64,000 bases of DNA, taken from Nitrospira sp. (GTDB lineage: Bacteria > Nitrospirota > Nitrospiria > Nitrospirales > Nitrospiraceae). A model generated the notes under the pieces. The model searched no databases, was not told where the DNA came from, and worked only from the letters and a program-made list of their open reading frames with translations. Of this stretch, positions 1-23,464 are shown piece after piece. The DNA lies in assembly GCA_015709715.1 (NCBI GenBank), contig CP054184.1, forward strand, positions 2,713,001 through 2,777,000, in the 5' to 3' direction. Each line of letters begins with the position of its first letter. Position 1 is the first letter of the stretch. Position numbers and translations under genes: made by a program.

Positions 1-1353
1 CAGCGGTTGTTCGGGCGGACTCTGCCGGCGGATCTGATGGGCAAGTCACCCTACGATCTGTTGCATCAATCCTGCCATGACTCCGTGCGAGCACGGCTCC
101 GGCACCTGCTTGAAACGGGCAGCACGTTTCCCGAGGAGGAGGCGCAGATCGTCCGTTGCGATGGGACCGTCGTGGACGTCGGGCTCAGCGCGTCGTACTT
201 CAGGGATGAGGAGGGCGGCGGGATTTTGCTGCTGTTGCGCGACATTACCGAGCGCAAACTGGCCGAGCAGCGGGTGCGGGAAAGCGAAGAGCGCCTGCAA
301 AGCCTACTCGATGCGATGGAGGATGTCGTCTGGTCCTCAGCGTTGGACCTTTCCGCCATCTATTACATCAGTCCGTCGGCGGCGCAAATCTATGGCCGCC
401 CGGCGGAAGATTTCATCCGGCAGCCTGGTCTATGGACGGAGCTGATTCACGCGGAGGACCGCCCGTCGATCGAGCGGGCTCTGCAGGACCTCCGGACGAC
501 CGGAGAATTCGATGTGGAATATCGGGTTGGCTTGCTCAACGGAGAAACCCGCTGGGTGCATGATCGGCGGCGCATTATCAAGGACGAGGCGGGGCGGCCG
601 CTGCGGATCGACGGGATCGCCACCGACATCACGGAACGGAAGCATTTGCAGGCGCAGTTGCGGCGCACCGAGCGTGTGGCGGAATTGGGAACGGTGGCGT
701 CCGGCATGGCCCATGAGATCGGGACGCCGATGAATGTGATCCTGGGGCGAGCCGAATATCTCATGGAGCGCACGAAAGAAGAATCGGTCAAGAAGGGTCT
801 GCAGACCATCGTGAGTCAGGTGGAACGGATTACGAGAGTGATGAGTCAGCTCCTGGCCTTTGCCCGGCGCCGCCCGGTCGAACATCGGGCTCTGGATCTG
901 CGCCAGACGATCGAAGACAACTTGGAGATTTTTCAAGAGCGGCTGGCGCATAACGACATCACCGCGGAAACCGAGTTCGCGGACGACTGCCCGTTGGTGC
1001 ATGCGGACGGCGATCAGATGAGCCAGGTCTTGATCAATCTCGTGATGAACGCCATCCATGCCATGCCTACCGGCGGCCGATTACGTGTGGCCCTGGCTCC
1101 GGATCGTGGGGTGGTGAAGTTGACCGTGGCTGATACCGGACATGGCATGCCGAGGGACATCATCGCCAAGATCTTCGACCCGTTCTTTACCACCAAGGAG
1201 TTCGGCAAGGGGACCGGGCTTGGGTTGACGGTGGTCAAGGGCATCATTGAGGAGCATGGTGGAACCATTCAGGTTGAGAGCGAGCCGGACCAGGGGACCA
1301 GGTTCACGATCTGCCTCCCTCTCCATGCGGACAAGGGGGCCGTCACCTCGTAA
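1..1353 (+). CDS. PAS-PAS sensor histidine kinase (5' end outside the window)
   Basis: The frame is open from base 1, so the gene begins upstream of the window. Counting from the TTG at 7, the visible part holds the end of one PAS/PAC module (about residues 1-85), a second PAS/PAC module (about 88-215, ending in a DITERK motif), a HisKA dimerisation helix with the phospho-acceptor H236 in [10 protein letters not shown], and a HATPase_c domain with the N box ([11 protein letters not shown]), G1 (DTGHGMP) and G2 (GKGTGLGL). No membrane segment is visible, so the sensed signal is unknown and could lie in the missing part. It is followed by a receiver-only regulator and a sigma-54 activator. I infer a shared signalling chain, but the kinase ends 217 bases before the next gene and that gene has its own promoter. 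Confidence 0.93.
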
Positions 1354-1458
1354 AGTGCTGCTGTGCGGTTGTGGCGCTTCGGGGCAGACATCCTTGCTCC
1401 ACTGGGGTCTTTCTCGCCAGCCATTCTGTTGCGTACCACTCGCCTGATACCCCATTCG

Positions 1459-1471
1459 ATCGAAAATCGAT
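1459..1471. promoter_or_regulatory. 13-bp palindrome upstream of a sigma-54 promoter
   Basis: ATCGA-AAA-TCGAT lies about 45 bases upstream of the -24 element at 1514. Its position suits an activator site, but it does not resemble the CTGTCC element seen at the other sigma-54 promoters here. It could be chance. Confidence 0.3.
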
Positions 1472-1513
1472 TGTGAAATAACCGGTTTCCGCGCGCATTC
1501 ACGTGTCGGGAAG

Positions 1514-1528
1514 TGGCACATGCCTTGC
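1514..1528 (+). promoter_or_regulatory. sigma-54 (-24/-12) promoter for the response-regulator gene
   Basis: TGGCAC-ATGCC-TTGC matches the sigma-54 consensus exactly, with GG and GC ten bases apart. Transcription would start near 1540, giving a leader of about 30 bases before the ATG at 1571. This rules out the upstream in-frame start at 1520, which lies inside the promoter. The rest of the 217-base gap after the kinase gene holds no gene. Confidence 0.8.
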
Positions 1529-1570
1529 GAATGCAGCCTGTCGATGAACTGCCGTCATGAGAGGCTCAGT

Positions 1571-1975
1571 ATGGAGCAGGGGAGGCCAGCCGTCCTACTG
1601 GTCGTGGAAGATGACAAGGATATGCGTAGCCTGCTCTGCGACGAGTTGTGGGGGGAGGGATACCAACTCAGGGAGGCTGCCACCGGGGATGAAGGGTTGG
1701 CGGCAGTCATGCGAGCCGCGCCGGATCTGATCGTCACCGACCTCAAGATGCCTGCCGGCGGCTTTGACTACGTGCATCGGCTGAGGGTGTGCGCCCCGAA
1801 TTGCCCCATTATTGTCATGTCGGCCTTTGGGGATGCGCGGACCAGGCAGGAGGCGTTGAGCCATGGCGCGACCGCCTATTTCGACAAGCCGCTCCGGCTT
1901 TCCGAACTGAAGGTGACGGTGAAACAATTGCTCAAAAACATGGAGGGATCGCAGGGGAGCCGCCTCCCCCATTGA
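1571..1975 (+). CDS. single-domain response regulator (receiver only)
   Basis: A 134-residue protein made of one REC domain: acidic pocket VVEDD at about 12-15, phospho-acceptor D57 in [10 protein letters not shown], switch residues in PIIVMSAF, and the conserved Lys in FDKPL. There is no output domain, so it either relays phosphate or acts by protein contact. The start was chosen because GAGG lies about seven bases upstream and the sigma-54 promoter at 1514-1528 excludes the longer form. Flanked by the PAS kinase and a sigma-54 activator that has no receiver domain of its own. This REC could therefore be the detached input for that activator; this is inference. Confidence 0.88.
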
Positions 1976-2102
1976 CCTTGTCGGGGGCGCGATCGTCCCG
2001 CGTCGGAGTGGGTTGTTTTGCAGTCGAAATCATAGTAAAAATGGGGCCTTCGAACGATCTGAAGGGCCCTACGTGACATCCACCAGCACGAGGAGTGATG
2101 AG

Positions 2103-3497
2103 ATGGCCGGATCATCATCACAAATTCCCGCAGCTCCTCCCTTTTCCGATCCTATTCTTGCCGCTCGACTCGAAGCTCTGAAACAGCTGGCGGATGGTCT
2201 GACCGATCGTGTCGCCGTCATGGATCGAGACCTCAATGTCGTGTATGCCAACGAACAGGCATGGGGCGAGGGTGGAAGCCCCATCGCCAAGCCGGCCAAG
2301 TGCTATGAGGCCTTCGTTCAACTGGAAGATCCCTGCGGCATCTGTCCGGCCACGACGGTGTTTGAGACTCGAGAGGTGCGTACCATTTCCTGCGCCAGTT
2401 CCGGCGATGGGACGGCTTGCGGGATGCATCAGGCGTTTCCGCTGATGTCGGCCTCCGGGGAAGTGGGGTCCGTGTTGGTGCTCTTCCATAAGCGGCCTGA
2501 CAAGGAGTCCCTCTCGGCCCGCGCGATCCAGTCCTCTGGTCGGGCGCGGCCTGAGCGAACGGATGGGCGTCTTGGCGAGATCGTCGGAGCCAGCCCGGCC
2601 ATGAATCAATTGTTCGACATGATCCGCCTGGTGGCAGACAGCGTGGCGACAGTGTTGATCCATGGTGAAAGCGGGACCGGCAAGGAGTTGGTGGCGCGGA
2701 CGATCCATCAGACGAGTTACCGGCGAGACAAACCATTTGTCGTGGTGGATTGTGGAGCGCTTCCTGAAACGCTGCTGGAAAGCGAGCTGTTCGGTCACGT
2801 CAAAGGCGCGTTTACGGGCGCTGCCACCTCGAAGCCGGGCCTCTTCGAAGAGGCGGATGGGGGCACGGTGTTCTTGGACGAGATCGCCGATACCTCACCG
2901 ACCTTTCAGGCCAAACTCCTTCGGGTGTTGCAGGAAGGCGAGATCAAGCGCGTCGGGGGCACGCAACCGATCAAGATCGATGTGCGCGTCATCTCGGCGA
3001 CCAATAAGGATCTGACCGATCTGGTCCGGGCCAAGGCCTTTCGGCAAGACCTCTATTATCGGCTGGCCGTTCTTCCGGTTCATTTGCCGCCGTTACGAGA
3101 ACGGAGAGAGGACATTCCGCTCTTGGTGTCCAAGTTCGTCATGGACTCTTGCCAGAGACACCGCCAGCCCCAGCGTTCGGTCGGGGAGGAGGTGATGCGG
3201 GCCTTGACGGCCGCGCCCTGGCCGGGGAATGTCCGGGAACTGCAGCACTACATCGAACGTGCGGTCGTGACGACCACCCATGGCGAACTCACCTGTGCGG
3301 ACCTGGTGGCCATGGGAGCGTCGATGGAGAATACGGATTTTCGGACTGCGGTGCGGGACGCCACTCGCCAGGCCGAACGGGTGCGGATTCTCCAGGCGCT
3401 TCAGCAGGTATCCGGTAACCGAGTGAAGGCGGCTCGCTTGCTCAAGATCAGCCGTGCCGGCCTTTATAACAAACTGCGCGAATTAGAGATCGAGTAG
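2103..3497 (+). CDS. sigma-54-dependent transcriptional activator with cysteine-bearing PAS-like N-terminus
   Basis: A 464-residue enhancer-binding protein. Residues 25-125 look PAS-like and carry five cysteines (C67, C78, C81, C97, C106), including a CGIC pair. The AAA+ domain has Walker A GESGTGKE (from 188), the sigma-54 contact loop GAFTGA (235-240) and Walker [11 protein letters not shown] Fis-type helix-turn-helix ends the protein ([19 protein letters not shown]). No receiver domain is present, so control probably comes through the N-terminal domain. Start chosen at 2103 because AGGAG sits seven bases upstream. It lies directly upstream of a sigma-54-promoted multicopper oxidase operon and is the obvious candidate regulator. 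Many PAS domains of this type carry similar cysteines, so metal or redox sensing is only a possibility. Confidence 0.93.
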
Positions 3498-3785: not shown

Positions 3786-3801
3786 AGGCACATGTATTGC
3801 C
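3786..3801 (+). promoter_or_regulatory. sigma-54 promoter for the multicopper oxidase operon
   Basis: GGCAC-ATGTA-TTGC matches the -24/-12 consensus except that A replaces the leading T. GG (3787-3788) and GC (3799-3800) are ten bases apart. The start site would fall near 3811-3813, leaving a leader of about 226 bases. The region between 3498 and 4038 has no credible gene: it holds the activator sites, this promoter and a structured leader. Confidence 0.72.
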
Positions 3802-3896
3802 ATTAGGTGGGACGCTGGTGAAGGTGCGGGTGATTAGGACCGGCCTCCGAATGACCTGCTCCCTCGATCTCGAGGAGAGCCTTCACCAGCCCTAAT
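3802..3896 (+). promoter_or_regulatory. structured 5' leader of the multicopper oxidase mRNA
   Basis: GCTGGTGAAGG (3814-3824) pairs perfectly with CCTTCACCAGC (3880-3890). ATTAGG/CCTAAT (3802-3807/3891-3896) extend the pairing in the DNA, and CCTCGA-TC-TCGAGG (3862-3875) forms an inner hairpin. With the predicted start at 3811-3813, the 11-bp stem would sit at the very 5' end of the transcript. I do not recognise it as a known riboswitch. It may protect the mRNA or act as a regulatory element. Confidence 0.5.
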
Positions 3897-3966
3897 TCTC
3901 TTTGGAGCGTTTCGTGGAGGGGACTAGGGGAGGCCGGAGCAGCCGGGGTCCTACCTGACGGAGGCC

Positions 3967-3987
3967 GGTCACACGACCACGTTTTTT
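3967..3987 (+). terminator. weak hairpin followed by T6 in the leader
   Basis: GGTC-ACAC-GACC (3967-3978) is followed after three bases by six T residues (3982-3987). The stem is only four base pairs, so it would be a poor terminator alone. Its place between promoter and oxidase makes an attenuator conceivable. Confidence 0.25.
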
Positions 3988-4013: not shown

Positions 4014-4038
4014 ATTCACAAGGAGGGAGGCCGAAATT

Positions 4039-7000
4039 ATGAGGTCTTCATTGCATGGGCCAAAACGCAAACGCTGGCGTCGCGATGCGATGCTGCGTCT
4101 GCAGGCGGCGCTGCTGTCGGGCAGTTTGCTCGCGGCGCCGTGGGTGTTTGCGGCCGGACCAGGAGATCAGTCGCATAGCGGACATGCGACGCAGGTCGCC
4201 ATGCCCGGCTGGACCCAGACCCTGAAGGGTCAAACGGTGGTGGAAAACGCCATCGAGGGTCGTGCGGGAAGTGTGGAGCAGTCGGAAATGCAGCATCACC
4301 GACTGATGCAGCGCCTTGAAGACCAGGCCATTAAGGATGGGCAGGCGCAGGCGACATCCGGTGCCTTCAACACGATGTCGACCATGCACCAGTACATGGG
4401 CCAAGACGGGAGCAGCTTCCTGTTGGCGTCCGACTCGGGTAAGGGGGAGCCGGTCTTGACCAGCGGCGGGAAATGTCCGGCGGGTGTGCCGGTCAAGAAC
4501 TACGACGTGACGATGATGAACATCGAAATCACGTTGAATCGCTGGTTGGACTACTATCCCGGCTACATGTATGCCTTGACCCAGGATGTGGAGAAGGCCC
4601 GCGCCGAGGAAGCCAAGAACAAGGCGGCCCGTGAGAAAGATGGATACGATCCGGGCGCGGTGAGCACGGGATTGCAAGGCGATGTGATCCAGCCCTTGGT
4701 GCTCCGTGCAAACCAGGGCGATTGCGTCAAGATGACCCTCCGTAACCAGATGGAAGCCGAGGATGGCAGCTTGTTCATCCAGGCCTCCAGCATGGTGATC
4801 AGCGGTACGGGGAAACCTGCCACCACGACCAACCCTGAATCCATCGTAGCGCCGGGCAAGTCGCAGGAATTCGAATGGTACATCCATCCGAACATGCAGG
4901 AAGGTGTGCGGCAGTTCCATTCCTACAGCCATGACCGTGAGCTGACCGTGTTGGGTCTGTTCGGTGCGTTTATCGTCGAGCCGAAGGGATCGAAGTACAT
5001 GGAAGCGCTCGGCACCGGTCCCCAGAAGGAGACCGCGAGCGGCTGGCAGGTGAACATCGACAATGGGTCGGGGCCGGACTTCCGCGAGTTCGTGCTGTTC
5101 TATCACGAAATCGGCGATGAAGCCTTCCGTCCGTTGAACAAGAAGGGTGACTTCTTGCCGCAGCGCGATCCGCTGACCGACGCCTATCGTCCGGGCGGCC
5201 GTGCGTTGAACTATCGCAGCGAACCGTTCGGCATCGATCAGATGCACTTGCAGCACGAGTATTTCGGCTTCGAGGACGAGTCGATGGGCTACAGCTCCTA
5301 TACCTTCGGAGATGTGCCGACCACGATTCCTCGCGGCTATCTCGGCGATCCGGTCAAGTGGCGGATCGTGCACGGTGGGTCCGAAGTGTTTCACTCCCAC
5401 CATCCTCACAGCGGCACCATCCGCTGGCAGCGGAGTCCGGGCACGGAGCCCAACAACCTCTGGGCAGCGGGTCAGGATGGGCCGGTCAAGTATCCGGTCG
5501 TCCGGACCAAGTCCGACCGAGTCGACGTGGAAGTCATCGGTCCGTCCGAGGCCTTGGACCTTGAGCCGGAGTGCGGCGGCGGTGGCTGTCAGCACTTGGC
5601 CGGCGAATTCCTCTTCCATTGCCACGTGGCACACCACTATGTGGCGGGCATGTGGGGATACGGCCGCTTCTACAACACGCTCCAAGTCGGGGCCGCGCAT
5701 ACGGATACCATGCCGGACCTGCAGGAGTTGCCCGACCGTCAGGGTCGGATGAAGCTGGGCGTCAGCTCGGACAAGTTGATCGGCACCACGGTCGACTGGT
5801 TCGGGAAGACGTTCAAGATCGTCGACAAGGGTCAGAAGACCAACTGGAAATCCGATCCTGTGATCGTGAACATCAAGGATTGGGTCGAAATGTTCGTGCC
5901 GGCTCAGGGCCAACCGGGCCACACGAACGATGAAAAGGGCCAGATCTTGGCCTACGATTCCACGGTGTGGGACTGGAAGTGGGACGGCAACATCGCACGC
6001 GGTGAGCGTGAGAGCACCGCCCTGAATCCAAAGTATCCTGCCGCGGCGAAGTGGGATGACAGCACCAGACCCGCCATTCTGTTTGACCCGACCACGGGCA
6101 AAATGGCCTGGCCGCTGTTCAAGCCGCACTTCGGCAAGCGTGTGCCGTTCTCAGCCAACCACAGCGGTGCGCCATGGTTGGAGCCGATCCACCAGGATGA
6201 AAACGGTGATCGGACCTCCGAGCCGGCGAAGCCGGGCGAGCAGGGCCGTTGGAGCCTCTGCCCCGACAACGCCAACCGGAAGCATTACAACCTGCACTTC
6301 ATCCGGTTGCCCATTACCCTGGCCAAGAAGCAGGGCAAGGAGCCACCGATCGTCGACAAGGACGGCTTGATCTACGTGCTCCATGAAGAGGAGCAGTTGA
6401 CCAGGGCCAACGACGATCTGAAGTTGCCAGCGGTCATTCGCGCCAACGTGTATGACTGCGTGGACATTCTGTTGACCAGCGAGTGGGACGACGACGATTA
6501 CACCAACTTCCAGTCGTCCAAGATCAACATCCATCCGCACTTCTTCCAGTTCGACACTGGAAACTCGGATGGCGTGATTTCAGGCTTCGAGTACGAGATG
6601 TCCGTCCGGCCGTTCACCATGTGGGGCAAGAAAACCAAGCACGGTCTGCCGGCTCCGATGGTGGCGAAATTGAAGGAGGGCATCAAGGCGGGCGCCTCGT
6701 CCATCAAGATCCAGATGGCGCCGGGTGCCACGCCGTTCCATGTCAACACCGAACTGATGGTCGGCATGGATTGTTTGGAGAAGGGGCACGACACGACGGC
6801 TTCCTTGCCTCGCGACAAGAGCTGTCAGGAAGTGGCCCGTATCAAGGAGATCAAGGGTGATGTGGTCACGTTCTTCAAGCCGCTGAAGCATGCGCATCCG
6901 GCCAACGACCTCGTGTCGCCGGAATTCGTGCGTTATCGGTGGTGGGTGGACGTGGATATGGGGACCGTGTTCTGGCATGACCACGCGTTCGGCGCGACGA

Positions 7001-8979
7001 CCTGGCCGCATGGCGGGTTCGGCGTGACGATCGTGGAGCCGTACGGGTCCACCTATCATGATCCGAAGAACGGCAAGCTGGTGTACAGCGGGCCGGTCGC
7101 GGACATCCACAGCAATGAGCCGATCGGTGCCGGTGTGAGCGGCAGCTTCCGTGAGTTGATGGTCTCCATCCACGACACGGTGCCCCATACCGTCAACGTC
7201 ATCGAAGCCGGCAATCCCCCGGGACAGCCGATCGAAGTGGCGTTGGAAGCAGGCAAGACGGTGTCCTTCCAGATGCCGGACAAGATCCTGAATGCGCCGA
7301 ACAAGTACATCAACGGCGGCACGCACACGACCGGCAGCGGGTTTAACTTCCGCGCGGAGCCGTTTGCACAACGCCTGTCGAACAATCCTGATACCTCGAA
7401 GCTGTTCAGCAGCGCCATCCACGGCGACCCGGACACGCCTCTCCTGAGAGCGTATGTGGGCGACACGATGGTGTTCCGTCTGTTGCACCAGCTGATGAAC
7501 GAATCCCATGTGTGGACGATTTCCGGCCACACGTTCCTGACCGAACGCTATGCGGCGGATGCCAATCGGAAGAACTCCATCCACGTGGGGATCGCCGAGC
7601 GGTATGACCTCGTCAGCAAGGCGGGCGGATTCCAGGGGATGCCGGGCGACTACATTCACTTCAACGGACGAAGCTCGCACTTCGCCGAAGGTGGATGGGG
7701 CATCGTCCGCGTGCTGGATAAGCAAGTGGAGGATCTGAAGCCGTTGCCGAAGGGGACCAACCCGATCGGCATTCCTCCTGTGCCGAGTTCCGTGTGTCCG
7801 TCCGATGCGCCGGTGAAGAACTTCAACGTGGTGGCGTTGGATCGCCCGATGAAGCTCAACCCGAAGGCGCCGGATGCCATCGAGGTGGACTTCGAGCGGA
7901 AGATCGAAATGACCATGCCGGAAGGCAAGATCTTCGCGCTGGAGGAAGAAGCCGCGACGGTCGCAGGCAACGTGATGCCGAACCCGCTCACGCTGCGCGC
8001 GAACCTGGGCGACTGCCTCAAGGTGCATCTGAAGAACAAGATGAAGGAGAGCCGGGCCTCGTTCTTTGCGCCGGGCTTGGCCTTCGATCCGCGCGACAGC
8101 CAGGGGTTGAACGTCGGCAACAACGGCGGCGACCAGACCGTGGCTCCGGGCGAGAGCCGGACCTATACCTTCTACGCGCATCCTTCCAACAAGGAGACCA
8201 CGTCGTTGGTGTGGGACGGTGGCAACATCGTCGTCAATCCGCGCAACGGGTTGTACGGCGCGATCATCATCGGCCCGAAGGGATCGCAGTATCGTGATCC
8301 TGTGACCGGCGCCGATGTGTCTCAGAAGAACAGCTGGCGGGCGGATGTCATCGTCGACGCCAGCCTACCGGAGAACGCCGGCAAGCGGAACTACCGTGAC
8401 GTGGCCCTCTTCTTCCAAGATGAGGACAACATCATCGGCACCGCGTTCATGCCGTATGTGCAGAATGTAGCCGGTCTGACGTCGGTCAACTACCGCGCGG
8501 AACCGTATAAGTTCCGCGAGGAAGAAGGCTGCTCGCTGGGCAAGATCTTCCAGCCGTGTAAGGTGGACAAGCCTGAGGATCCTGTGACGCCGTTGATCGA
8601 GGCGCACGCGGGAGACCCAGTGCGTATCCACGTGATCGGCGCGAACAGCGAACAGAACGGCATGTTCGGAGTCGAGGGCCACGAGTGGCCGATCGAACCC
8701 TATATGCCGGGTGCCGACATGATCAGTGTGGTGGAGTACGCCGGGTCAGAGACCCTGGATGTCTTCCTCCGGGGTGGTGCGGGTGGTCCGTATCGCCAGG
8801 TGGGAGACTTCGTGTGGTCCAACCAGCGGTTGCCCTACACGCAATCCGGACAGTGGGGCTATCTGCGCGTGTTGCCGGCTGGCGACCAGCGGATTCAGCC
8901 TCTCGGGGCGGCCGGATCAGGCGCACGTCAAGCGGAAGTGCAGCCTGATGCACAGGCGATCCCGACTGCCATGAAGTAA
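4039..8979 (+). CDS. giant multidomain multicopper oxidase (1646 residues), exported
   Basis: A Sec-type signal (basic n-region, then LQAALLSGSLLAAPWVFA) is followed by repeated cupredoxin domains. The first half holds HSHHPH (H452-H457) and a complete type-1/type-3 motif HCHVAHHYVAGM with H527, C528, H529, H533 and M538 at canonical spacings. Further HxH motifs are HPH (832-834) and HDH in TVFWHDHAF (980-982). Later domains keep the fold but have a degenerate end motif without the cysteine (YIHFNGRSSHFAEGGWG). Most multicopper oxidases are 450-700 residues. This size recalls the large bacterial oxidases linked to Mn(II) oxidation (MofA of Leptothrix, and McoA/MnxG of Pseudomonas). In Pseudomonas putida GB-1 Mn oxidation depends on a sigma-54 regulator, MnxR. 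The substrate here is not established; copper or another metal or organic reductant is possible. First gene of the operon. Confidence 0.9.
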   Translation: MRSSLHGPKRKRWRRDAMLRLQAALLSGSLLAAPWVFAAGPGDQSHSGHATQVAMPGWTQTLKGQTVVENAIEGRAGSVEQSEMQHHRLMQRLEDQAIKDGQAQATSGAFNTMSTMHQYMGQDGSSFLLASDSGKGEPVLTSGGKCPAGVPVKNYDVTMMNIEITLNRWLDYYPGYMYALTQDVEKARAEEAKNKAAREKDGYDPGAVSTGLQGDVIQPLVLRANQGDCVKMTLRNQMEAEDGSLFIQASSMVISGTGKPATTTNPESIVAPGKSQEFEWYIHPNMQEGVRQFHSYSHDRELTVLGLFGAFIVEPKGSKYMEALGTGPQKETASGWQVNIDNGSGPDFREFVLFYHEIGDEAFRPLNKKGDFLPQRDPLTDAYRPGGRALNYRSEPFGIDQMHLQHEYFGFEDESMGYSSYTFGDVPTTIPRGYLGDPVKWRIVHGGSEVFHSHHPHSGTIRWQRSPGTEPNNLWAAGQDGPVKYPVVRTKSDRVDVEVIGPSEALDLEPECGGGGCQHLAGEFLFHCHVAHHYVAGMWGYGRFYNTLQVGAAHTDTMPDLQELPDRQGRMKLGVSSDKLIGTTVDWFGKTFKIVDKGQKTNWKSDPVIVNIKDWVEMFVPAQGQPGHTNDEKGQILAYDSTVWDWKWDGNIARGERESTALNPKYPAAAKWDDSTRPAILFDPTTGKMAWPLFKPHFGKRVPFSANHSGAPWLEPIHQDENGDRTSEPAKPGEQGRWSLCPDNANRKHYNLHFIRLPITLAKKQGKEPPIVDKDGLIYVLHEEEQLTRANDDLKLPAVIRANVYDCVDILLTSEWDDDDYTNFQSSKINIHPHFFQFDTGNSDGVISGFEYEMSVRPFTMWGKKTKHGLPAPMVAKLKEGIKAGASSIKIQMAPGATPFHVNTELMVGMDCLEKGHDTTASLPRDKSCQEVARIKEIKGDVVTFFKPLKHAHPANDLVSPEFVRYRWWVDVDMGTVFWHDHAFGATTWPHGGFGVTIVEPYGSTYHDPKNGKLVYSGPVADIHSNEPIGAGVSGSFRELMVSIHDTVPHTVNVIEAGNPPGQPIEVALEAGKTVSFQMPDKILNAPNKYINGGTHTTGSGFNFRAEPFAQRLSNNPDTSKLFSSAIHGDPDTPLLRAYVGDTMVFRLLHQLMNESHVWTISGHTFLTERYAADANRKNSIHVGIAERYDLVSKAGGFQGMPGDYIHFNGRSSHFAEGGWGIVRVLDKQVEDLKPLPKGTNPIGIPPVPSSVCPSDAPVKNFNVVALDRPMKLNPKAPDAIEVDFERKIEMTMPEGKIFALEEEAATVAGNVMPNPLTLRANLGDCLKVHLKNKMKESRASFFAPGLAFDPRDSQGLNVGNNGGDQTVAPGESRTYTFYAHPSNKETTSLVWDGGNIVVNPRNGLYGAIIIGPKGSQYRDPVTGADVSQKNSWRADVIVDASLPENAGKRNYRDVALFFQDEDNIIGTAFMPYVQNVAGLTSVNYRAEPYKFREEEGCSLGKIFQPCKVDKPEDPVTPLIEAHAGDPVRIHVIGANSEQNGMFGVEGHEWPIEPYMPGADMISVVEYAGSETLDVFLRGGAGGPYRQVGDFVWSNQRLPYTQSGQWGYLRVLPAGDQRIQPLGAAGSGARQAEVQPDAQAIPTAMK

Positions 8980-9004
8980 GCGGGCGAATCATGGCGTAAC
9001 TACG

Positions 9005-9041
9005 GATGGGGGGGCTGCCTGTATCATGCAGCTCCCCCATC
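9005..9041 (+). terminator. long intercistronic hairpin after the oxidase gene
   Basis: A 14-base stem (GATGGGGGGGCTGC with GCAGCTCCCCCATC, one G-T pair) closes a nine-base loop CTGTATCAT. There is no T run, so it may act as an RNA stability element or partial terminator between the oxidase and the downstream genes. Confidence 0.5.
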
Positions 9042-9068
9042 TGCGTTTCAGGCCCGGGTAGGAAAGGC

Positions 9069-9121
9069 GATTGGCTCCCTGTATCATTGATGGAGGGTGT
9101 CAATGATTTCATGGACCAATC
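9069..9121 (+). promoter_or_regulatory. nested inverted repeats upstream of the cupredoxin gene
   Basis: Outer arms GATTGG/CCAATC enclose symmetrical eight-base internal loops and inner arms ATCATTGA/TCAATGAT around a nine-base loop. It lies just before the AGGAGG at 9126-9131. The decamer CCTGTATCAT occurs both here (9078-9087) and in the preceding hairpin (9018-9027), exactly 60 bases apart. Confidence 0.4.
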
Positions 9122-9137
9122 ACAGAGGAGGCCGGAC

Positions 9138-10130
9138 GTGACATTGCGTACCATAATTGAAAGGACATCGTGCAAGAAAGAGAAGAGGGCTCGCATGGGA
9201 GGAAGGGGGCTGCTGATGGCAGCCATGGCTTGGGCGTGCTTCGCTGGTGTGCCCGCCTCGGCCTATGAAGAAGTGCCGGTGACGGACGGTGGAACCCTCA
9301 CAGGGGCCATCACCCTGGAGGGAAAGGTCCCTAAACCCAAGGGATACAACCTCGTGACGTTGCCCGATCAATTCTATTGCGGGCGGATTTCCGATGGGCA
9401 GGGCTGGCGCATCTTGCAGCCGTTCCAGGTCGGGCCGGCCGGAGAGTTTCGTGACGTGGTCGTCTATCTGGAGGGCATTGAAAAGGGGAAGCCCTTCGAG
9501 GAAGGGACCGTTCCGCAGATTGAAGCGAAAGACTGTCTCTTCCTGCCGTTTACGACAGTCGTGCGGGACGATCAATCGGTGACGGTGGTGAACATGGATC
9601 CCGTCATGCACGACATTCAAGCCTATGAAACCTCGCAGCTGGGTCCGCGGGTCTTGTTCAACGTGCCGCTGCCGATGAATCCTCAGCATCCGCGCAACTT
9701 CAAAGATCGGAGCGATGCGGCGCTGTACCACAAGCACATGGCCGGCCCGCCGATGAAGCAGTTGGTCAACCTCAGCAAGGGCCGCCGGATCTTCGTCATG
9801 CAATGCGGGTTCCACGCCTATATGGAGAGCTGGGGCGTGGCCGTCACCAATCCCTACTTTGCCAAGACCGATGAGCAGGGCCGGTTTACCATGACCAACG
9901 TGCCCCCCGGCACCTACAAGTTGGTCGTGTGGCATCCCTACGTCCGCACCGCGATCGAACAGACCGTGACGATCGGGGCGAAGGGGACGGTGGAAGCCAA
10001 TATCGTCGTGCAGGCTCCGACGGGACGGTTGTACGCGAACGAGGTGATCGACCATCCTTACGTTCGCTACAACATCCCCGAAGAAACGCAGAAAGAAATC
10101 GATCCGATGGTGCAGAAACAGGAACACTGA
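9138..10130 (+). CDS. exported cupredoxin-like protein with carboxypeptidase-regulatory-like domain
   Basis: A 330-residue protein with a long n-region and signal sequence ending in VPASA. The middle has the histidine in NMDPVMHDIQAY and a cluster MQCGFHAYMESW, which supplies the Cys, His and Met expected of a type-1 copper site. The C-terminal part (FTMTNVPPGTYKLVVWHP) is the small Ig-like carboxypeptidase-regulatory fold. GTG at 9138 was chosen because AGGAGG is six bases upstream; ATG at 9195 is an alternative. Downstream of the multicopper oxidase, so it may deliver copper or electrons to it. I do not know a named family member. Confidence 0.72.
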   Translation: MTLRTIIERTSCKKEKRARMGGRGLLMAAMAWACFAGVPASAYEEVPVTDGGTLTGAITLEGKVPKPKGYNLVTLPDQFYCGRISDGQGWRILQPFQVGPAGEFRDVVVYLEGIEKGKPFEEGTVPQIEAKDCLFLPFTTVVRDDQSVTVVNMDPVMHDIQAYETSQLGPRVLFNVPLPMNPQHPRNFKDRSDAALYHKHMAGPPMKQLVNLSKGRRIFVMQCGFHAYMESWGVAVTNPYFAKTDEQGRFTMTNVPPGTYKLVVWHPYVRTAIEQTVTIGAKGTVEANIVVQAPTGRLYANEVIDHPYVRYNIPEETQKEIDPMVQKQEH

Positions 10131-10138
10131 AGAGGACC

Positions 10139-11071
10139 ATGGCAACACTCAGTCGGGTTTCGCTGCCGGCCGTCATGGTCGGTCTGGCGACAGGGCTGCT
10201 TCTGGGTTTGGTGACGACGAGCCATGCCGACCATGAATTGCCCAAGCCGCCGCCGCTCTGGTCTCCGCTCGATGAGGCCGAGCGGTTGGCGTTGATCGAC
10301 GTGCCAGGCGGCATGGTCCAGGTGCCAGCCGGCCCATTCTTGATGGGCAGCGATCCGCGGGTCGATCGGGCGGCAGGGCCGCAGGAGCAGCCCCAGCATC
10401 AGGTGTACGTCGACGCCTTCCAGATCGATCGGTTCGAAGTCAGCAATGTGAACTATTTGCGGTATGTCCTGGCCACCGGAGCGCCATGGCCGCATTACTG
10501 GCGGGAACAGCCGTTTCCGGAAAAGATCGCGAAACATCCGGTGATCGGTGTCTCATGGCGGGAGGCTGATGCCTATTGCCGGTGGCGGGGAGCCCGTCTC
10601 CCGACCGAAGCCGAATGGGAGAAGGCCGCGCGCGGCGAGGACGGGCGCATGTTTCCCTGGGGCAATGAGCCGGCCGGTTGGATCAAGAGCAACATCGCCC
10701 ATCCGGGATCCAAACGGGGGGCGAAGTATCCGCCGCTGGCCAACGTGGACCGGTACCAGAACGGTGTGAGCCCCTATGGGGTGTACCAATTGGCCGGCAA
10801 CGTCAGCGAGTGGGTATCCGATTGGTTCGATCCGGAATATTACCGGCGTGAGGAGAATCGGAACCCCATCGGCCCGACCACGGGACAGGACAAGGTCTTT
10901 CGCGGAGGGTCATGGAATGAGGACCCCGAAGTCGCCCGCTCTGCCGGGCGCAACTCCGGAGGACTCGACCATTGGAGTTATTTGATCGGGTTTCGTTGCG
11001 CAGTGTCGGGCGAGAGCAGCCGTCAACTCTCGGCCGTTGATCCGGACCTTCTGCCGAAGGCCGATCGCTGA
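10139..11071 (+). CDS. exported SUMF1/FGE-fold protein, first copy
   Basis: 310 residues with a signal peptide ending TTSHA, then a full SUMF1 domain: VPAGPFLMGSD, VSWREADAYCRWRG, LPTEAEWEKAARG, GNVSEWVSDWF, FRGGSWNEDP and GFRCAVS. In true formylglycine-generating enzymes two cysteines follow the RGGS motif and bind copper. Here that stretch has none, so sulfatase-activating chemistry is unlikely. A binding or structural role with the neighbouring copper proteins is inferred. AGAGG lies close to the start. It is followed after 33 bases by a paralogue. Confidence 0.88.
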   Translation: MATLSRVSLPAVMVGLATGLLLGLVTTSHADHELPKPPPLWSPLDEAERLALIDVPGGMVQVPAGPFLMGSDPRVDRAAGPQEQPQHQVYVDAFQIDRFEVSNVNYLRYVLATGAPWPHYWREQPFPEKIAKHPVIGVSWREADAYCRWRGARLPTEAEWEKAARGEDGRMFPWGNEPAGWIKSNIAHPGSKRGAKYPPLANVDRYQNGVSPYGVYQLAGNVSEWVSDWFDPEYYRREENRNPIGPTTGQDKVFRGGSWNEDPEVARSAGRNSGGLDHWSYLIGFRCAVSGESSRQLSAVDPDLLPKADR

Positions 11072-11104
11072 GCGGAGACGGCAGGACTAACAAGGAGGCC
11101 GAAG

Positions 11105-12076
11105 ATGAAGAAACAGCGAGTGGGCAGGTTTCGGAAGGGCCTGCGAGTGACGCAGGCCCTGGTGATCGGAGCAGCATTATTCGCGCTGATTCCGGTCGCA
11201 CGGGCGCTGGATACGCAGGACATCATCGTCGAGTGGACGCCGGAGGGGAAGGCCCTCGCCGAGCAGCGCGCGGCCACGATGAAACCCAAGGAAGGCACGG
11301 TGTTGGTACCGGCGGGCGAATTCATCATGGGCAGCGACAAAAAGACGGATCGCTTGGCCTATCGGTCGGAATTGCCGCAACGCCGTGTGTACCTGGACGC
11401 CTACGAAATCGACCAATACGAAGTCACGAACCTCCACTATCTGAAGTACATCCTCGCGACCGGCAAATTGCCGCAGTTGGATTGGCGGTATGACGGGGGG
11501 AATTTCCAGGAGTCGATGGCCAACCATCCGATCATGCACGTCTCCTGGTACGACGCCGATAGTTACTGTCGCTGGGCCGGCAAGCGGTTGCCGACGGAAG
11601 CGGAATGGGAAAAGGCCGCCCGCGGCGACGATGGGCGGTTGAACCCCTGGGGCAACCAATCGGCCGGTTTGAGCCGTGCCAATTTCGGTCGAACCGGCCT
11701 GTCCGGTCCGGTCCGGGACCGTCCCGAACGGCTGCTGATGTATCCGCCGCTCATTTCAGTGGATAAGTATGACAACGCCGTGAGTCCCTATGGGTTGTTT
11801 CAAACGATGGGCAATGTGGCGGAGTGGGTGTCGGATTGGTACGACTTGGATTATTACAAGTCCGCTCCGGATCGAAACCCGAAAGGGCCGGAAACCGGCA
11901 GCCAGAAGGCGTTTCGGGGCGGCGGCTGGATGGACAGCACCACCACCATGCGGGTGGCCATGCGGAACGGGACCGATCCGAACACCAAGATCAATTGGAT
12001 GGGGTTCCGTTGCGCGCGTGATGTGAAAGAGGGCACGGCGAGCACCGTGTCCTACACGGGGCCGACGGGTCAATAG
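11105..12076 (+). CDS. exported SUMF1/FGE-fold protein, second copy
   Basis: 323 residues; signal peptide MKKQRVGRFRKG...FALIPVARA. It shares the SUMF1 landmarks with its neighbour: VPAGEFIMGSD, VSWYDADSYCRWAG, LPTEAEWEKAARG, GNVAEWVSDWYD, FRGGGWMDS, GFRCARD. It likewise lacks the catalytic cysteine pair after RGGG. AAGGAGG precedes the ATG. A tandem pair of non-catalytic SUMF1 proteins inside a copper-oxidase operon suggests a complex rather than sulfatase maturation. The two copies are clearly diverged, so the duplication is not recent. Confidence 0.88.
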   Translation: MKKQRVGRFRKGLRVTQALVIGAALFALIPVARALDTQDIIVEWTPEGKALAEQRAATMKPKEGTVLVPAGEFIMGSDKKTDRLAYRSELPQRRVYLDAYEIDQYEVTNLHYLKYILATGKLPQLDWRYDGGNFQESMANHPIMHVSWYDADSYCRWAGKRLPTEAEWEKAARGDDGRLNPWGNQSAGLSRANFGRTGLSGPVRDRPERLLMYPPLISVDKYDNAVSPYGLFQTMGNVAEWVSDWYDLDYYKSAPDRNPKGPETGSQKAFRGGGWMDSTTTMRVAMRNGTDPNTKINWMGFRCARDVKEGTASTVSYTGPTGQ

Positions 12077-12155
12077 GGAGGTCACCAGTCGATCATGCAT
12101 CGACTATTAGGAATGCTGATGCCTCGGGCCGGCGAGCGCGGTGCAGCAAGCCGAC

Positions 12156-12178
12156 GGGAGAGCCAGGACGGCTCTCCC
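12156..12178 (+). promoter_or_regulatory. intercistronic hairpin
   Basis: GGGAGAGCC-AGGAC-GGCTCTCCC is a perfect nine-base stem without a T run, placed between the second SUMF1 gene and the outer-membrane gene. It could set differential mRNA stability within the operon. Confidence 0.45.
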
Positions 12179-12206
12179 GCAACAACAGCCCAAGGAGGGG
12201 GGCATC

Positions 12207-12917
12207 ATGCGGAGATGGAAGAGCAGTGGGATCGGTGGAGTCGTGCGTGCGACGGTTGCGATCGTCGCGGTCCTCGGTGTCTGTGGTGCTTGGCCGGCCT
12301 CGGCTGAAGAAATCGGCAACATGGTTGCGTTCAAGGGCGGATTCATGCGGTTGAACAGCGATCGCGCCGACAACTTATTTACGGATGCCAGGAATCCGTT
12401 GGGGGCTGGTCTCAACGACAGCCAAAACGGATGGTATGTCGGCGCCTGGTTGGATCTGGCCCTCTCCAAAGACGCGTGGGGGCTGATGAATGGGACCTGG
12501 GCGGTGGGGGAGATCGGTCTGCAGTTCAATCGCATCGCGTCGAAAGTCGTGACCAACACGGGCAATCTCGGTGTCGGCACAACTCCCCCGGCGGGCTTGC
12601 AAGTTACATCAACCACACCCTCGACGCAGCAATTGACGATGGTGACAATCGACATCTCGCCCAAACTGAAGTTCATGGAGGGCAGTGCGTTTCGGCCGTG
12701 GCTCATTCCGGTGGGACTTGATATCCATGTCATCAGCCCGCCATCCAACCAAACTCAGTATTTGGATGTCGGGGTGCAATTCGGCGCCGGTTTCGAGTAT
12801 CAAGTGTGGAAGGCATTCAAGTTGGGCATGGATGCGCGGTACCACTTGACGGCCAACATGACCAATACGTCGAACAGTTACTTCCAAGTGGGGCCCTATG
12901 TCGGGATCTCGTTCTGA
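12207..12917 (+). CDS. outer-membrane beta-barrel protein
   Basis: 236 residues; signal peptide ending in AWPASA, then alternating hydrophobic/polar strands typical of a small barrel (EIGLQFNRIAS, TIDISPKLKFM, LDVGVQFGAGFEYQV, LGMDARYHLTANM) and a terminal aromatic, YVGISF. Start at 12207 follows AGGAGG; the same frame is open further upstream but without a site. Probably the outer-membrane partner of the copper-enzyme operon. The precise family is not recognised. Confidence 0.75.
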   Translation: MRRWKSSGIGGVVRATVAIVAVLGVCGAWPASAEEIGNMVAFKGGFMRLNSDRADNLFTDARNPLGAGLNDSQNGWYVGAWLDLALSKDAWGLMNGTWAVGEIGLQFNRIASKVVTNTGNLGVGTTPPAGLQVTSTTPSTQQLTMVTIDISPKLKFMEGSAFRPWLIPVGLDIHVISPPSNQTQYLDVGVQFGAGFEYQVWKAFKLGMDARYHLTANMTNTSNSYFQVGPYVGISF

Positions 12918-13193: not shown

Positions 13194-13670
13194 GTGGTGT
13201 TTGTGCTGATTTGGATTCACCTGCTGTCTGCGGTGGTGTGGATCGGTGGGATGGTGTTTCTATCGGTCGTGTTGGTGCCTGTGCTCCGGCGAGGCGGCCA
13301 ATTCGCCCAGCACGCGACGCTGTTTCGCACGGTCGCCTACCGGTTTCGCGGGCTGGTCTGGGGGGCGATGGGGGTGTTGATTGTGACCGGCTTGGTGATC
13401 GCGTCAGGGCGGTCGATCGATGTCACGGCGCCGCACTTATGGCCCGCGGTGTTTGCGGCGAAATTGGGTGTCGTGGCGTTGTTGTTCGCCCTCACGCTGC
13501 TGCATGACCTTGTCGTGGGTCCGCGAGTGCGACGGGTGCTCGGCGTGAAAGAGGTCGAGCGTACAGCAGGAGACCGGCTCTTGCTCCGGTACTCCGTCTT
13601 GGTACCGCGCCTCTCGTTGCTGTTGTCGCTGGTGGTGCTGCTGCTGGCCGTGATCCTCGCCCGCACGTAG
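13194..13670 (+). CDS. CopD-like four-helix membrane protein
   Basis: 158 residues with four hydrophobic helices: WIHLLSAVVWIGGMVFL, GLVWGAMGVLIVTGLVIA, PAVFAAKLGVVALLFALTLLHDLVV and LSLLLSLVVLLLAVIL. The first-helix motif IHLLSAVVWIGGMVF and the internal His resemble the CopD/DUF4149 membrane family, some of which are linked to copper handling. GTG at 13194 or 13197 is the start; AAGGAG fits 13197 slightly better. It lies after the hairpin that ends the copper-oxidase operon, so it may be transcribed separately. Confidence 0.65.
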   Translation: MVFVLIWIHLLSAVVWIGGMVFLSVVLVPVLRRGGQFAQHATLFRTVAYRFRGLVWGAMGVLIVTGLVIASGRSIDVTAPHLWPAVFAAKLGVVALLFALTLLHDLVVGPRVRRVLGVKEVERTAGDRLLLRYSVLVPRLSLLLSLVVLLLAVILART

Positions 13671-18855: not shown

Positions 18856-19044
18856 ATGAGACTCAATGATTGGCTTCGGTTGATCGCAGGGGTGTTCGTG
18901 TTGGCCTCAGTCGTGTTGGGAGCGACGGTGCATCCCTATTACCATTATTTCGCGGCATTCGTTGCGGCGAATCTGATCCAGTCGTCGTTTACCGGCTGGT
19001 GTCCGATGATGGCCCTGTTACGGAGGCTTGGTGTCCAGGAGTAA
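18856..19044 (+). CDS. DUF2892-type small membrane protein
   Basis: 62 residues forming two short helices (LIAGVFVLASVVLGATV and YFAAFVAANLIQSSF) and ending with the GWCPMMALLRRLG motif typical of DUF2892/YgaP-like membrane anchors. AAGGAGG precedes ATG 18856. Its end overlaps the start of the membrane fusion protein gene by 14 bases, so translation is probably coupled. The conserved Cys in GWCP is reminiscent of rhodanese-associated membrane tails. Confidence 0.78.
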   Translation: MRLNDWLRLIAGVFVLASVVLGATVHPYYHYFAAFVAANLIQSSFTGWCPMMALLRRLGVQE

Positions 19045-20122
19045 CGAGAGGAGCGGGAGGGCCTGGTGGGCGGCGCTGGCGCTGCTGACCCTGGCAGGTT
19101 GTGGGCAAGGGGAGGATCCGTCCCGGTCCGGGGCGGTGGCGCCGACCCTAGCGGTTCGACCCACGATCCACGCCGCGGTGGTCGAGGTGAAGGTCGGGCA
19201 AGTGCCCGTCACGGTGGAAGTGACGGGACAGGTCACGGCCCTGTACCAAGCGACCCTGGCGAGCCGCATTCAAGGCACCATCGATGAGCTCTTGGTGCGG
19301 GAAGGCAGTCCCGTGCGCAAGGGGCAGACGCTGGTCAGGTTGGACAATCGTGATCTACGGGCAGAACTGGCCCGCATGACCGCGGAACTCGACAATGCCG
19401 ATGCGCAACGAAAACGCATGGAAGACCTGTATCAGAAGGACGCTGTCTCCAAGCAGGAATGGGAGAATGCCACGCGCGGCTTCCGCGTGGCGGAGGCAGG
19501 CCGAAAGGCGGTGCTGGCTCAATTGAGTTACACCGTCGTGAAAGCTCCCTTCGATGGCGTGATCACGGACAAGAAAGTCGAAGTGGGTGAATTGGCATCG
19601 CCTGGGCAACCGTTGCTGCGGATGGAAGACCCGACGCGGCTTCGGTTGGAAGCCACGGTCGCCGAGAGCGATGTGGGGTTGGTCACGGTCGGCGCCGCCG
19701 TTCCGGTCGTCATCGATGCGCTGGGTTCCGAGCCGCTCCAAGGTACGGTGTCACAGATCCTGCCGGCCGGAGACCCGCAGACCCATACCTTTATGATGAA
19801 GGTGGAGTTGCCGAAGCAGCCGAGGGTGAAGTCCGGGATGTTCGGTCGGCTGCGGCTCGAACGGGGCGTGACCCAGACCATGGCGGTCCCGAAATCGGCT
19901 CTGATTGAGCGGGGCGAGCTGGCCGGGCTGTATGTCGTCGAGCAGGATCACGTCGCGCGCTTGCGGTGGGTCAAGTTGGGGCGTCCGTTGGAGCAGGGAG
20001 TCGAAGTCCTCTCGGGACTCAATGCCGGCGAACGGATCCTGGCCGATGCGACGAGGGGAGAGGACGGTGCCTTGGTGCAAGACGTGACGGCGGTGGCGCT
20101 GCCCACCGGAAAAACGGAATGA
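19031..20122 (+). CDS. RND efflux periplasmic adaptor (membrane fusion lipoprotein)
   Basis: 363 residues; lipoprotein signal with lipobox LAGC at about 20-23. A lipoyl-like half motif (VTALYQATLASRIQGTIDELLVREGSPVRKGQTLVRLD is split by an alpha-hairpin, about 100-160), followed by beta-barrel and membrane-proximal domains. GTG at 19031 was chosen because GGAGG lies four bases upstream. It links the inner-membrane pump encoded 21 bases downstream to an outer-membrane channel, which is not encoded next to it. Confidence 0.9.
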   Translation: MSRSNERSGRAWWAALALLTLAGCGQGEDPSRSGAVAPTLAVRPTIHAAVVEVKVGQVPVTVEVTGQVTALYQATLASRIQGTIDELLVREGSPVRKGQTLVRLDNRDLRAELARMTAELDNADAQRKRMEDLYQKDAVSKQEWENATRGFRVAEAGRKAVLAQLSYTVVKAPFDGVITDKKVEVGELASPGQPLLRMEDPTRLRLEATVAESDVGLVTVGAAVPVVIDALGSEPLQGTVSQILPAGDPQTHTFMMKVELPKQPRVKSGMFGRLRLERGVTQTMAVPKSALIERGELAGLYVVEQDHVARLRWVKLGRPLEQGVEVLSGLNAGERILADATRGEDGALVQDVTAVALPTGKTE

Positions 20123-20143
20123 GCTGCCCATGACGGTTGCCCC

Positions 20144-23100: not shown

Positions 23101-23464
23101 GAACTCCATTCTCCTGGTCGATTTCATCCAACATCAGGAGGCGGAAGGTGTGCCGCTCCTGGAGGCGGTCATCCGTGCCGGCGCCATCAGGACCAGGCCG
23201 ATTCTGCTCACGGCGGCGGCCTTGATGGTGGGTGCCTTCGTCATCATCCTCGACCCGATCTTCCAGGGCCTTGCGGTGTCTCTGCTGTTCGGAGTCGGCG
23301 CCTCGACGGTTCTCACGCTGGTGGTGATCCCGGTTCTCTACTACCAATGGATCGGCACCGGTGCGGCAGGTGAGACGGTCGAGGCCGGCCCTCCTGTCCA
23401 GTCTAGTGCCGATGTGCAGTCGGCGCCGGAGGAGCCGGGCGTCGGTGTCGTCCGCCATTCCTGA
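20144..23464 (+). CDS. RND-family efflux pump, inner-membrane permease
   Basis: 1106 residues, the usual AcrB-like length. Helix 1 follows a short cytoplasmic tail (KLTPLIIIAVLLLGLLAILL); two large periplasmic loops flank two bundles of helices. The proton-relay aspartates are present in helix 4 (FSIGILVDDAIVVVENTYRH). The second bundle ends with GFIALAGIIVRNSILLVDFIQH, the RND family signature. Paired with an adaptor lipoprotein; substrate not predictable from sequence. Its last 62 bases overlap the convergent UspA gene. Confidence 0.93.
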   Translation: MTTPRLGPSGRLAALFVGSKLTPLIIIAVLLLGLLAILLTPREEEPQIVVPMADVWLPFPGASAKVVEEQLTKPIERKLSEIKTVEYVYSISRPGGALIIVRFYVGEPMEQSLVDLYDKLMSNQDLLPPGALPFQVKPRDVNDVPIVTLTLSSARYDDFQLRQLADQVLEDAKKVPGTAGGFIVGGRGRELRVQIDPTRLKAYGLTPLRVAGVIQGENLALPTGRFESRNKSFLVETGRFIRSKEDLETLVVGVNDQRPVYLRQVAAVTDGPTEATSYVWHGERAGAVASTATDGRATAAQEVPAVTVALAKQAGTNAVTVAHGVIQKVEELKGTVIPADVRVTVTRDYGETADEKANELLWHLLIAVVAVVVFLGFTLGLRPAFVVSIAIPLTLAMTLFVSMLIGYSINRVTLFALIFSIGILVDDAIVVVENTYRHLTLRRHPHREASLVAVDEVGNPTILATLTVIAALLPMAFVSGLMGPYMRPIPVNASIAMFVSLLVAFVVIPWFCQTCYRPGVTMHGVEGEAFEGGRTYRLYQRLLAPVLSHPLLAYLVLGVIALFLVGSVFLFYTRDVVVKMLPFDNKSELQLVIDLPEGTTLEETARVTKRVAEYVRTIPELRDYQAYVGTASPFNFNGLVRHYYLRDQPHEADIQINLLAKEERQAQSHEIAQRIRPAVQQIGRQYGANVKVVEVPPGPPVQSVLVAEIYGPEYERQQAIARDVRRLFEQTAGVVDVDDYLEADQVKYVFTVDRAKAALAGIPSEEIVKTLRLALEGANVGLVHLPKEKRPVQVMLRLPISERTGLEHLGELSLRSAAGSMLPLSEVIRVEQTMLEKAIYHKNLKPVVYVVADVGMAGQEKGESPVYGVLGIGKKLEQFTLPEGYSLAQHYAVQPWSEQRFGMKWDGEWHITYETFRDMGLAFGAALVLIYLLIVAQFQSFLTPVVIMAPIPLTLIGILPGHWLTGSYFTATSMIGFIALAGIIVRNSILLVDFIQHQEAEGVPLLEAVIRAGAIRTRPILLTAAALMVGAFVIILDPIFQGLAVSLLFGVGASTVLTLVVIPVLYYQWIGTGAAGETVEAGPPVQSSADVQSAPEEPGVGVVRHS

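Follow-up and report, generated by a model that had tools for sequence, protein, structure and literature searches.

A predicted sigma-54-driven copper-oxidase operon of Nitrospira with a structured, putatively anti-Shine-Dalgarno leader RNA

The window analysed here is a 64,000-nt stretch of Nitrospira sp. DNA (contig CP054184.1, positions 2,713,001 to 2,777,000) from a single-contig genome of 4.16 Mb. Near its left end lies the operon of a large multicopper oxidase. With a probability of roughly 55%, this locus is a sigma-54-driven envelope copper-oxidase operon that carries a new structured anti-Shine-Dalgarno leader RNA and encodes an exported MnxG-type metallo-oxidase. An earlier note on the same DNA had placed a multicopper oxidase, a cupredoxin-like protein, two SUMF1-fold proteins and a barrel in series at 4039–12917. 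These five open reading frames (ORFs; 4039–8979, 9006–10130, 9929–11071, 11105–12076 and 12141–12917) were found in that order on the plus strand, with Pfam and fold support. The functional unit opens further upstream, with regulators at 7–3497, a promoter at 3787–3800 and the leader RNA at 3814–3890. The ORFs of the cupredoxin, the first SUMF1 protein and the barrel appear from their sequences to be called from start codons that lie too early, and the signal peptides of the operon proteins were judged by eye. The genes, copper ligands, promoter, RNA fold, complementarity and distribution were all established computationally. The features of the locus are as follows.

7–1353, plus strand: PAS histidine kinase, C-terminal part (the full gene, 902 residues, begins left of the window); Pfam HATPase_c, HisKA and PAS; orthologues precede the oxidase in many loci
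1514–1529, plus strand: sigma-54-type box TGGCACATGCCTTGCG before the response-regulator gene; equivalent box in 15/19 loci
1520–1975, plus strand: single-domain response regulator, likely start near 1568; Pfam Response_reg
2013–3497, plus strand: sigma-54-dependent activator (AAA+, Fis-type helix-turn-helix, without a receiver domain); Pfam Sigma54_activat, E 9e-72
3787–3800, plus strand: predicted sigma-54 −24/−12 promoter element GGCACATGTATTGC; motif kept in 64/66 orthologous upstream regions
3814–3890, plus strand: structured leader RNA of ~80 nt, with P1 (3814–3824 with 3880–3890), a P2 hairpin with the invariant loop and a small P3 hairpin; 55-sequence alignment, covariance-model match E 6.6e-15
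3837–3848, plus strand: invariant leader loop GGACCGGCCTCC; identical in 55/55 aligned sequences
4026–4033, plus strand: extended Shine-Dalgarno sequence GGAGGCCG of the oxidase, with 8-nt complementarity to the loop; duplex −17.6 kcal/mol
4039–8979, plus strand: MnxG-type multicopper oxidase, 1646 residues, paralogue A; Cu-oxidase_3 in two stretches
9006–10130, plus strand: exported cupredoxin with a carboxypeptidase-regulatory-like domain, true start 9138 or later; Pfam CarboxypepD_reg, invariant ligands and fold match
10139–11071, plus strand: exported SUMF1-fold protein 1 (ORF opens at 9929, start near 10139); FGE-sulfatase, 186.6 bits
11105–12076, plus strand: exported SUMF1-fold protein 2; FGE-sulfatase, 191.5 bits
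12141–12917, plus strand: eight-stranded outer-membrane-type barrel, true start near 12204–12210; AlphaFold2 model, OMP_b-brl below cut-off
13194–13670, plus strand: CopD/DUF4149-like membrane protein; DUF4149 above and CopD below cut-off, homologue in 14 fetched oxidase loci

An NtrC-type sigma-54 response regulator gene directly precedes the PAS histidine kinase gene in the genome. The CopD/DUF4149-like protein is probably a neighbour rather than a core part of the operon.

The oxidase is related to MnxG (PDB 9bxa, E 3e-81), and the grouping with laccase-like enzymes of other function, which the earlier note had named as the finding that would speak against its proposal, was not observed. 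Against the NCBIfam MnxG equivalog NF041487 the protein scores 104.9 bits, below the cut-off of 3100. Twelve copper-ligand residues are kept (H452, H455, H457, H527, C528, H529, H533, M538, H832, H834, H980 and H982). The type-1 and trinuclear motifs that they form (HxxHxH, HCHxxxHxxxxM, HxH and HxH) are conserved in all eleven aligned Nitrospiria sequences and in five distant, plasmid-encoded homologues. In the tree, all Nitrospiria oxidases form one fully supported clade, in which paralogue A and a second paralogue (MCO-B, ~66% identical to A) occupy sister clades. Two features distinguish the upstream region of A from that of MCO-B: the sigma-54 element and the leader RNA.

A GG-N10-GC element lies at a conserved position in 64/66 A loci and is predicted to be the promoter. 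Its full form, GG-N-A-Y-N5-Y-TGC, occurs upstream of the same 64 of 66 oxidases, compared with a mean of 2.0 (maximum 4) in shuffled sequences and 2 on the reverse strand, and in only one of the 35 upstream regions of paralogue B. The element mostly stands about 200–310 nt before the oxidase start, with one group at about 370–440 nt. A scan of the window alone with the sigma-54 consensus was not significant (21 sites found, 30 expected) and is therefore uninformative, so that the promoter call derives from cross-species conservation alone.

The conserved segment directly 3´ of the promoter element is the leader RNA, whose core GG[AT]CCGGCCTCC was found in all 66 A loci with upstream sequence. 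In the alignment of 55 sequences, the 11 bp of P1 are paired in 100% of cells and seven of them show changes on both sides. P3 is paired in 94.5% of cells, with double changes in all three of its pairs. For the whole fold, 99.2% of cells are paired; none of 500 shuffles reached any of the measures, and versions slid along the alignment gave 37–57% pairing. Covariation lends no support to P2 or the three-pair apical helix, as there is hardly any variation in them. The covariation-supported fold and its fixed upstream position characterise the leader, on comparative sequence grounds, as a probable structured cis-regulatory RNA. A search of 4227 Rfam models returned no match at E 0.5 or 1. A leader peptide was also considered and was dropped on inspection, as some sequences lack the AUG in the P2 region.

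The covariance model detects one leader copy in this genome and copies in 165/247 Nitrospiria genomes; in a search of the phylum, the leader occurs, among the matches listed, only in the order Nitrospirales. The 30 best matches all precede an oxidase of the MnxG-like family, either type A or a more distant type. A further 20 regions, whose copies are secondary and mostly weaker, were fetched; one of them (L184) was too short to read. Among the 19 readable copies, 17 precede an oxidase-type ORF (just 930 residues in L192), one precedes an oxidase remnant (L182) and one precedes a different gene, a Crp/FNR-like protein by sequence (L181). Altogether, 47 of the 49 copies examined stand before an oxidase of this family; for most ORFs after secondary leaders, the copper motif and the tree identified the product as an oxidase, and for the rest only the N-terminal sequence did. 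Two leader-bearing oxidases, that of locus L183 and the one before it, lie in tandem.

The leader loop is complementary to two ribosome sites. Over 7–8 nt it pairs with the operon's own GGAGGCC(G) Shine-Dalgarno sequence (−15 to −18 kcal/mol), and GGAGGCC is present near the start in 59/66 A orthologues. Over 12 nt, the invariant loop GGACCGGCCUCC pairs with the MCO-B start, AAGGAGGCCGGTCC-ATG, directly adjacent to the AUG; this duplex was calculated at −29.2 kcal/mol, compared with −14.0 for the tail of 16S rRNA. MCO-B itself has neither the leader nor the sigma-54 box. The site GGAGGCCGGTCC is exact at the MCO-B start in 22/35 loci and has at most one mismatch in 30/35. This genome contains six copies of the 12-mer, of which one is the loop itself and another stands immediately upstream of the B start codon. 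The longer 15-mer GGAGGYCRGTCCATG was found in 113/247 genomes, compared with one match of the reversed control. For the sites at which both site and oxidase coordinates were visible on one contig, 66 of 66 lie 18–108 nt before the aligned oxidase start. Leader and site co-occur in 97 genomes and are both missing in 66, with 16 genomes having the site only and 68 the leader only (p 3e-9, relatedness ignored). Complementarity to the ribosome site of another locus, as expected of an RNA that base-pairs in trans, is conserved.

Further copies of related elements were observed. Two GGAGGCCGG elements lie between leader and start in the window (3929–3940 and 3960–3971); they could draw the loop away from the ribosome site, in the manner of a switch. 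In L232 (genome G319), a cytochrome c peroxidase-like gene has a GGAGGTCGGTCCATG site before it, which may be a further target of the loop. A second conserved GGAGGCCAGTCCATG site is found in L230 (G055) and L231 (G129), where no long ORF follows it, and also in G094, G123, G224 and G345.

In the proposed mechanism, the two-component/sigma-54 cassette would activate the −24/−12 promoter, and the transcript would start at about 3811 and open with the three-helix RNA. Its loop would act as an anti-Shine-Dalgarno sequence towards the ribosome sites of both A and MCO-B; as it can pair with both, the most likely effect of the leader is to limit how much of the oxidase is translated, and MCO-B may be lowered as well. 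Control of this kind in cis, possibly also in trans, is the mechanism best supported by the comparative data. Action in trans is argued from the leaderless MCO-B, which keeps an exact 12-nt complement. Lowering of MCO-B while operon A is on would tune one oxidase against the other. The wider proposal, that the oxidase-A mRNA leader silences the MCO-B ribosome site whenever operon A is on and so forms a paralogue switch across much of Nitrospirales, is tentative and is given somewhat less than even odds.

Several observations weigh against pairing in trans. No compensatory changes between the loop and the MCO-B site are visible, and because the loop never varies, such changes cannot prove the pairing. 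The MCO-B variant GGAGGCCAGTCC brings an A-C mismatch. The association of leader and site is confounded by phylogeny; in 16 of the 113 genomes with the MCO-B site no leader was detected, and the strict 15-mer is missing from 68 genomes that have the leader. Some of the other 15-mer sites do not stand at an oxidase, one of them preceding the cytochrome c peroxidase-like gene and several having no long ORF. GGAGGCC was also observed at 45/191 cupredoxin and SUMF1 starts, which suggests that part of the match may reflect the ribosome-site style of the lineage. On the operon side, the parts of the neighbourhood vary from locus to locus, as detailed below. Two other explanations of the loop were weighed against these data. 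The leader could be a riboswitch for a metal or a redox metabolite that acts in cis only, with the ligand freeing or trapping the loop that masks its own ribosome site. The compact fold of three helices at the inferred transcript 5´ end, the invariant loop, the 7–8 nt match to its own Shine-Dalgarno sequence and the tie to one gene family all agree with this explanation. However, it leaves the full 12-nt complement beside the MCO-B start codon in 22/35 loci unexplained, and the leader resembles no known riboswitch in Rfam; a riboswitch is considered somewhat unlikely. A less probable explanation is that the shared 12-mer is a protein-binding site, either for an RNA-binding repressor or for a DNA-binding regulator acting at both loci, and that no RNA-RNA seed exists. 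The 3837–3848 segment and the MCO-B start are indeed identical as double-stranded DNA, yet their placement points to the RNA level: the copy in operon A is the loop segment of an RNA fold with covariation, and the B copy is continuous with ribosome site and AUG.

The genes that follow the oxidase in the window also follow it in most of 68 distinct orthologous A loci, which bears out the neighbourhood conservation that the earlier note had proposed as a check. Counted over loci with enough flanking sequence, the cupredoxin stands beside the A oxidase in 49/59 loci, two SUMF1 genes in 29/34, and an orthologue of the sigma-54 activator lies upstream in 40/60. In 12 more distant loci, the cupredoxin homologue adjoins the oxidase in 10, with variable SUMF1 genes. 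This pattern indicates that the oxidase and the cupredoxin form the core and that the SUMF1 proteins and the barrel are additions. The predicted fold of the cupredoxin matches amicyanin, plastocyanin and purple cupredoxin, and its type-1 ligands (H202, C267, H270 and M273 in full-ORF numbering) are invariant in 37 homologues, in agreement with the earlier description of a cupredoxin-like carboxypeptidase-regulatory protein. With copper ligands in both proteins and a conserved neighbourhood, the suggested envelope copper module also held. Both SUMF1 proteins contain the SUMF1-fold domain PF03781 (E 9e-55 and 3e-56). In protein 2, aligned to solved formylglycine-generating enzymes, neither catalytic Cys position is Cys, and in protein 1 these cysteines were absent on inspection of the sequence. 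The pair was therefore rejected as true formylglycine enzymes. The AlphaFold2 model of the last protein has eight predicted strands (mean predicted local distance difference test score, pLDDT, 71.6), consistent with the barrel assigned earlier. The cupredoxin would serve as an electron or copper partner, the SUMF1 pair as structural or maturation proteins and the barrel as an outer-membrane anchor.

Tandem cupredoxin genes were observed in L006 and L037. The operons of C/D-type leader-bearing oxidases continue downstream (L186–L200) with a cupredoxin, a ~175-residue protein and a small one that weakly matches SMBP (small metal-binding protein). Downstream of paralogue B (L086, 10964–18277), two SUMF1-fold genes lie between two cytochrome bd-like oxidases; in this genome, genes of this fold are repeatedly found next to copper and haem oxidases. 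Some kilobases before paralogue B lie a Cas9-type CRISPR system and, beside it, a repeat array (G000:C1, about 3354300–3358500; L085, 9303–13475). Elsewhere in the window (19028–23464), the sequence suggests a large efflux gene of the RND type, preceded by an adaptor-like gene.

Nitrospira are major nitrite oxidisers and complete ammonia oxidisers, and the oxidase is one of their most widely kept envelope enzymes. The family is present in 243/247 Nitrospiria genomes (176/177 of the good ones), often in two copies, and is absent from the other classes of the phylum among the genomes sampled (296-genome phylum sample). Matches to NxrA were found in 170/247 Nitrospiria genomes and, among the matches listed, only in the order Nitrospirales. 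The oxidase also occurs in nearly all Nitrospiria genomes sampled outside that order, where NxrA was not found. These distributions indicate that the oxidase does not depend on nitrite oxidation, and its presence in 243 of 247 members of the class, non-nitrite-oxidising lineages included, suggests that its role lies outside nitrification, probably in the handling of metals. The exported product is most likely a periplasmic metallo-oxidase. It would reduce O2 to water at the expense of an electron donor in the periplasm, for which a low-valent metal (Mn(II), Fe(II) or Cu(I)) is the likeliest candidate. Among manganese, iron and copper, the homology leans to manganese, and the copper-linked neighbours lean slightly to copper supply or Cu(I).

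The physiological role was considered in the light of a 2013 genome paper on Nitrospina gracilis (PMC3578206). There, a multicopper protein conserved between N. gracilis and Ca. Nitrospira defluvii and similar to a Bacillus Mn oxidase is linked to a cluster with nitrite oxidoreductase and bd-like oxidase genes. The paper also proposes that Mn(III) serves to defend organisms without superoxide dismutase and catalase from reactive oxygen. That protein very probably belongs to the family described here. The defence proposal has this published argument and the similarity of the oxidase to MnxG in its favour; for the Nitrospira enzyme it is regarded as unlikely. Slightly more weight, still well below even, is given to a role in copper homeostasis, in which the oxidase would be a cuproxidase detoxifying Cu(I) and the cupredoxin and CopD-like protein would carry copper. 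Such a role would account for the copper-protein neighbours, including the nearby CopD-like gene, for the CopC genes that adjoin two distant homologues and for the weak SMBP match downstream of a leader-bearing C-type oxidase. However, the CopD and SMBP scores fall under the curated cut-offs, the nearest characterised relative is a Mn oxidase, and the copper-resistance oxidase model gives 24 bits against a cut-off of 479. A direct part in nitrite oxidation or its electron chain is very improbable. In its favour, nxrA is about 60 kb away from paralogue B in this genome, the extended cluster around B also contains bd-like oxidases, cytochromes and SUMF1 genes, and a similar link is drawn in PMC3578206, but the class-wide distribution does not follow NxrA, and a single-contig genome (G110) has both oxidase and leader without an NxrA match.

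Since the family was noted in 2013, the enzyme itself is not new. The leader RNA, the sigma-54 promoter and the complementarity to the paralogue are the new part: they are not described in the accessible part of PMC3578206, which leaves the N. defluvii paralogue unspecified, and no prior description was found in Rfam or in the open-licence papers searched. Given the 2013 report on the oxidase, the earlier statement that no system with this combination of genes had been described is correct only in part. Searches of the open-licence literature also gave nothing relevant on a Nitrospira RNA motif or on this oxidase with SUMF1 proteins, and a 2025 comparison of Nitrospirales genomes makes no mention of multi-copper, copper oxidase, cupredoxin or formylglycine. 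For Manganitrophaceae, "two novel MCOs each" were reported (PMC9040806), which fits the two-copy distribution in Nitrospiria. Promoter, fold and paired targets of the leader are exact to the base and offer a direct way into the function of the oxidase. If the pairing in trans is true, it would be an unusual case of an mRNA leader that adjusts a paralogous gene.

Compared with known systems, the operon combines familiar parts in a different arrangement. Its oxidase is of the same large multicopper type as MnxG of the Bacillus MnxEFG complex, and the copper-ligand positions align with those of a Priestia homologue; the two small genes upstream of the latter are consistent with mnxE and mnxF. In contrast, MnxG has 1228 residues compared with 1646 here, no mnxE/mnxF-like small ORFs were found in the operon, and a cupredoxin, the SUMF1 pair and the barrel take their place. 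In nirK-nirV, a copper enzyme is likewise followed by a SUMF1-fold protein, NirV being SUMF1-like, although NirK, a small nitrite reductase, is built differently. MnxR of Pseudomonas putida GB-1 is of the sigma-54-activator type. The MnxG and McoA oxidases of that strain are controlled by the MnxS1/MnxS2/MnxR two-component pathway, a likeness drawn from their description, and no leader RNA is described for them in the accessible part of the source (PMC8218464). MofA of Leptothrix, similar by description in size and as a putative metal oxidase, was the basis on which the earlier note suggested a link to Mn(II) oxidation. The suggested substrate found no further support in the gene neighbourhood: the mof operon contains mofB (Mip-like) and mofC (cytochrome c; PMC8218464), which were not found at the Nitrospira locus, and MnxE/MnxF-like genes are also missing here. 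As in cis-acting anti-Shine-Dalgarno leaders and base-pairing small RNAs, the loop of the Nitrospira leader is complementary to a ribosome site. Unlike these, the leader matches no Rfam family, and its best pairing target is the mRNA of a paralogue.

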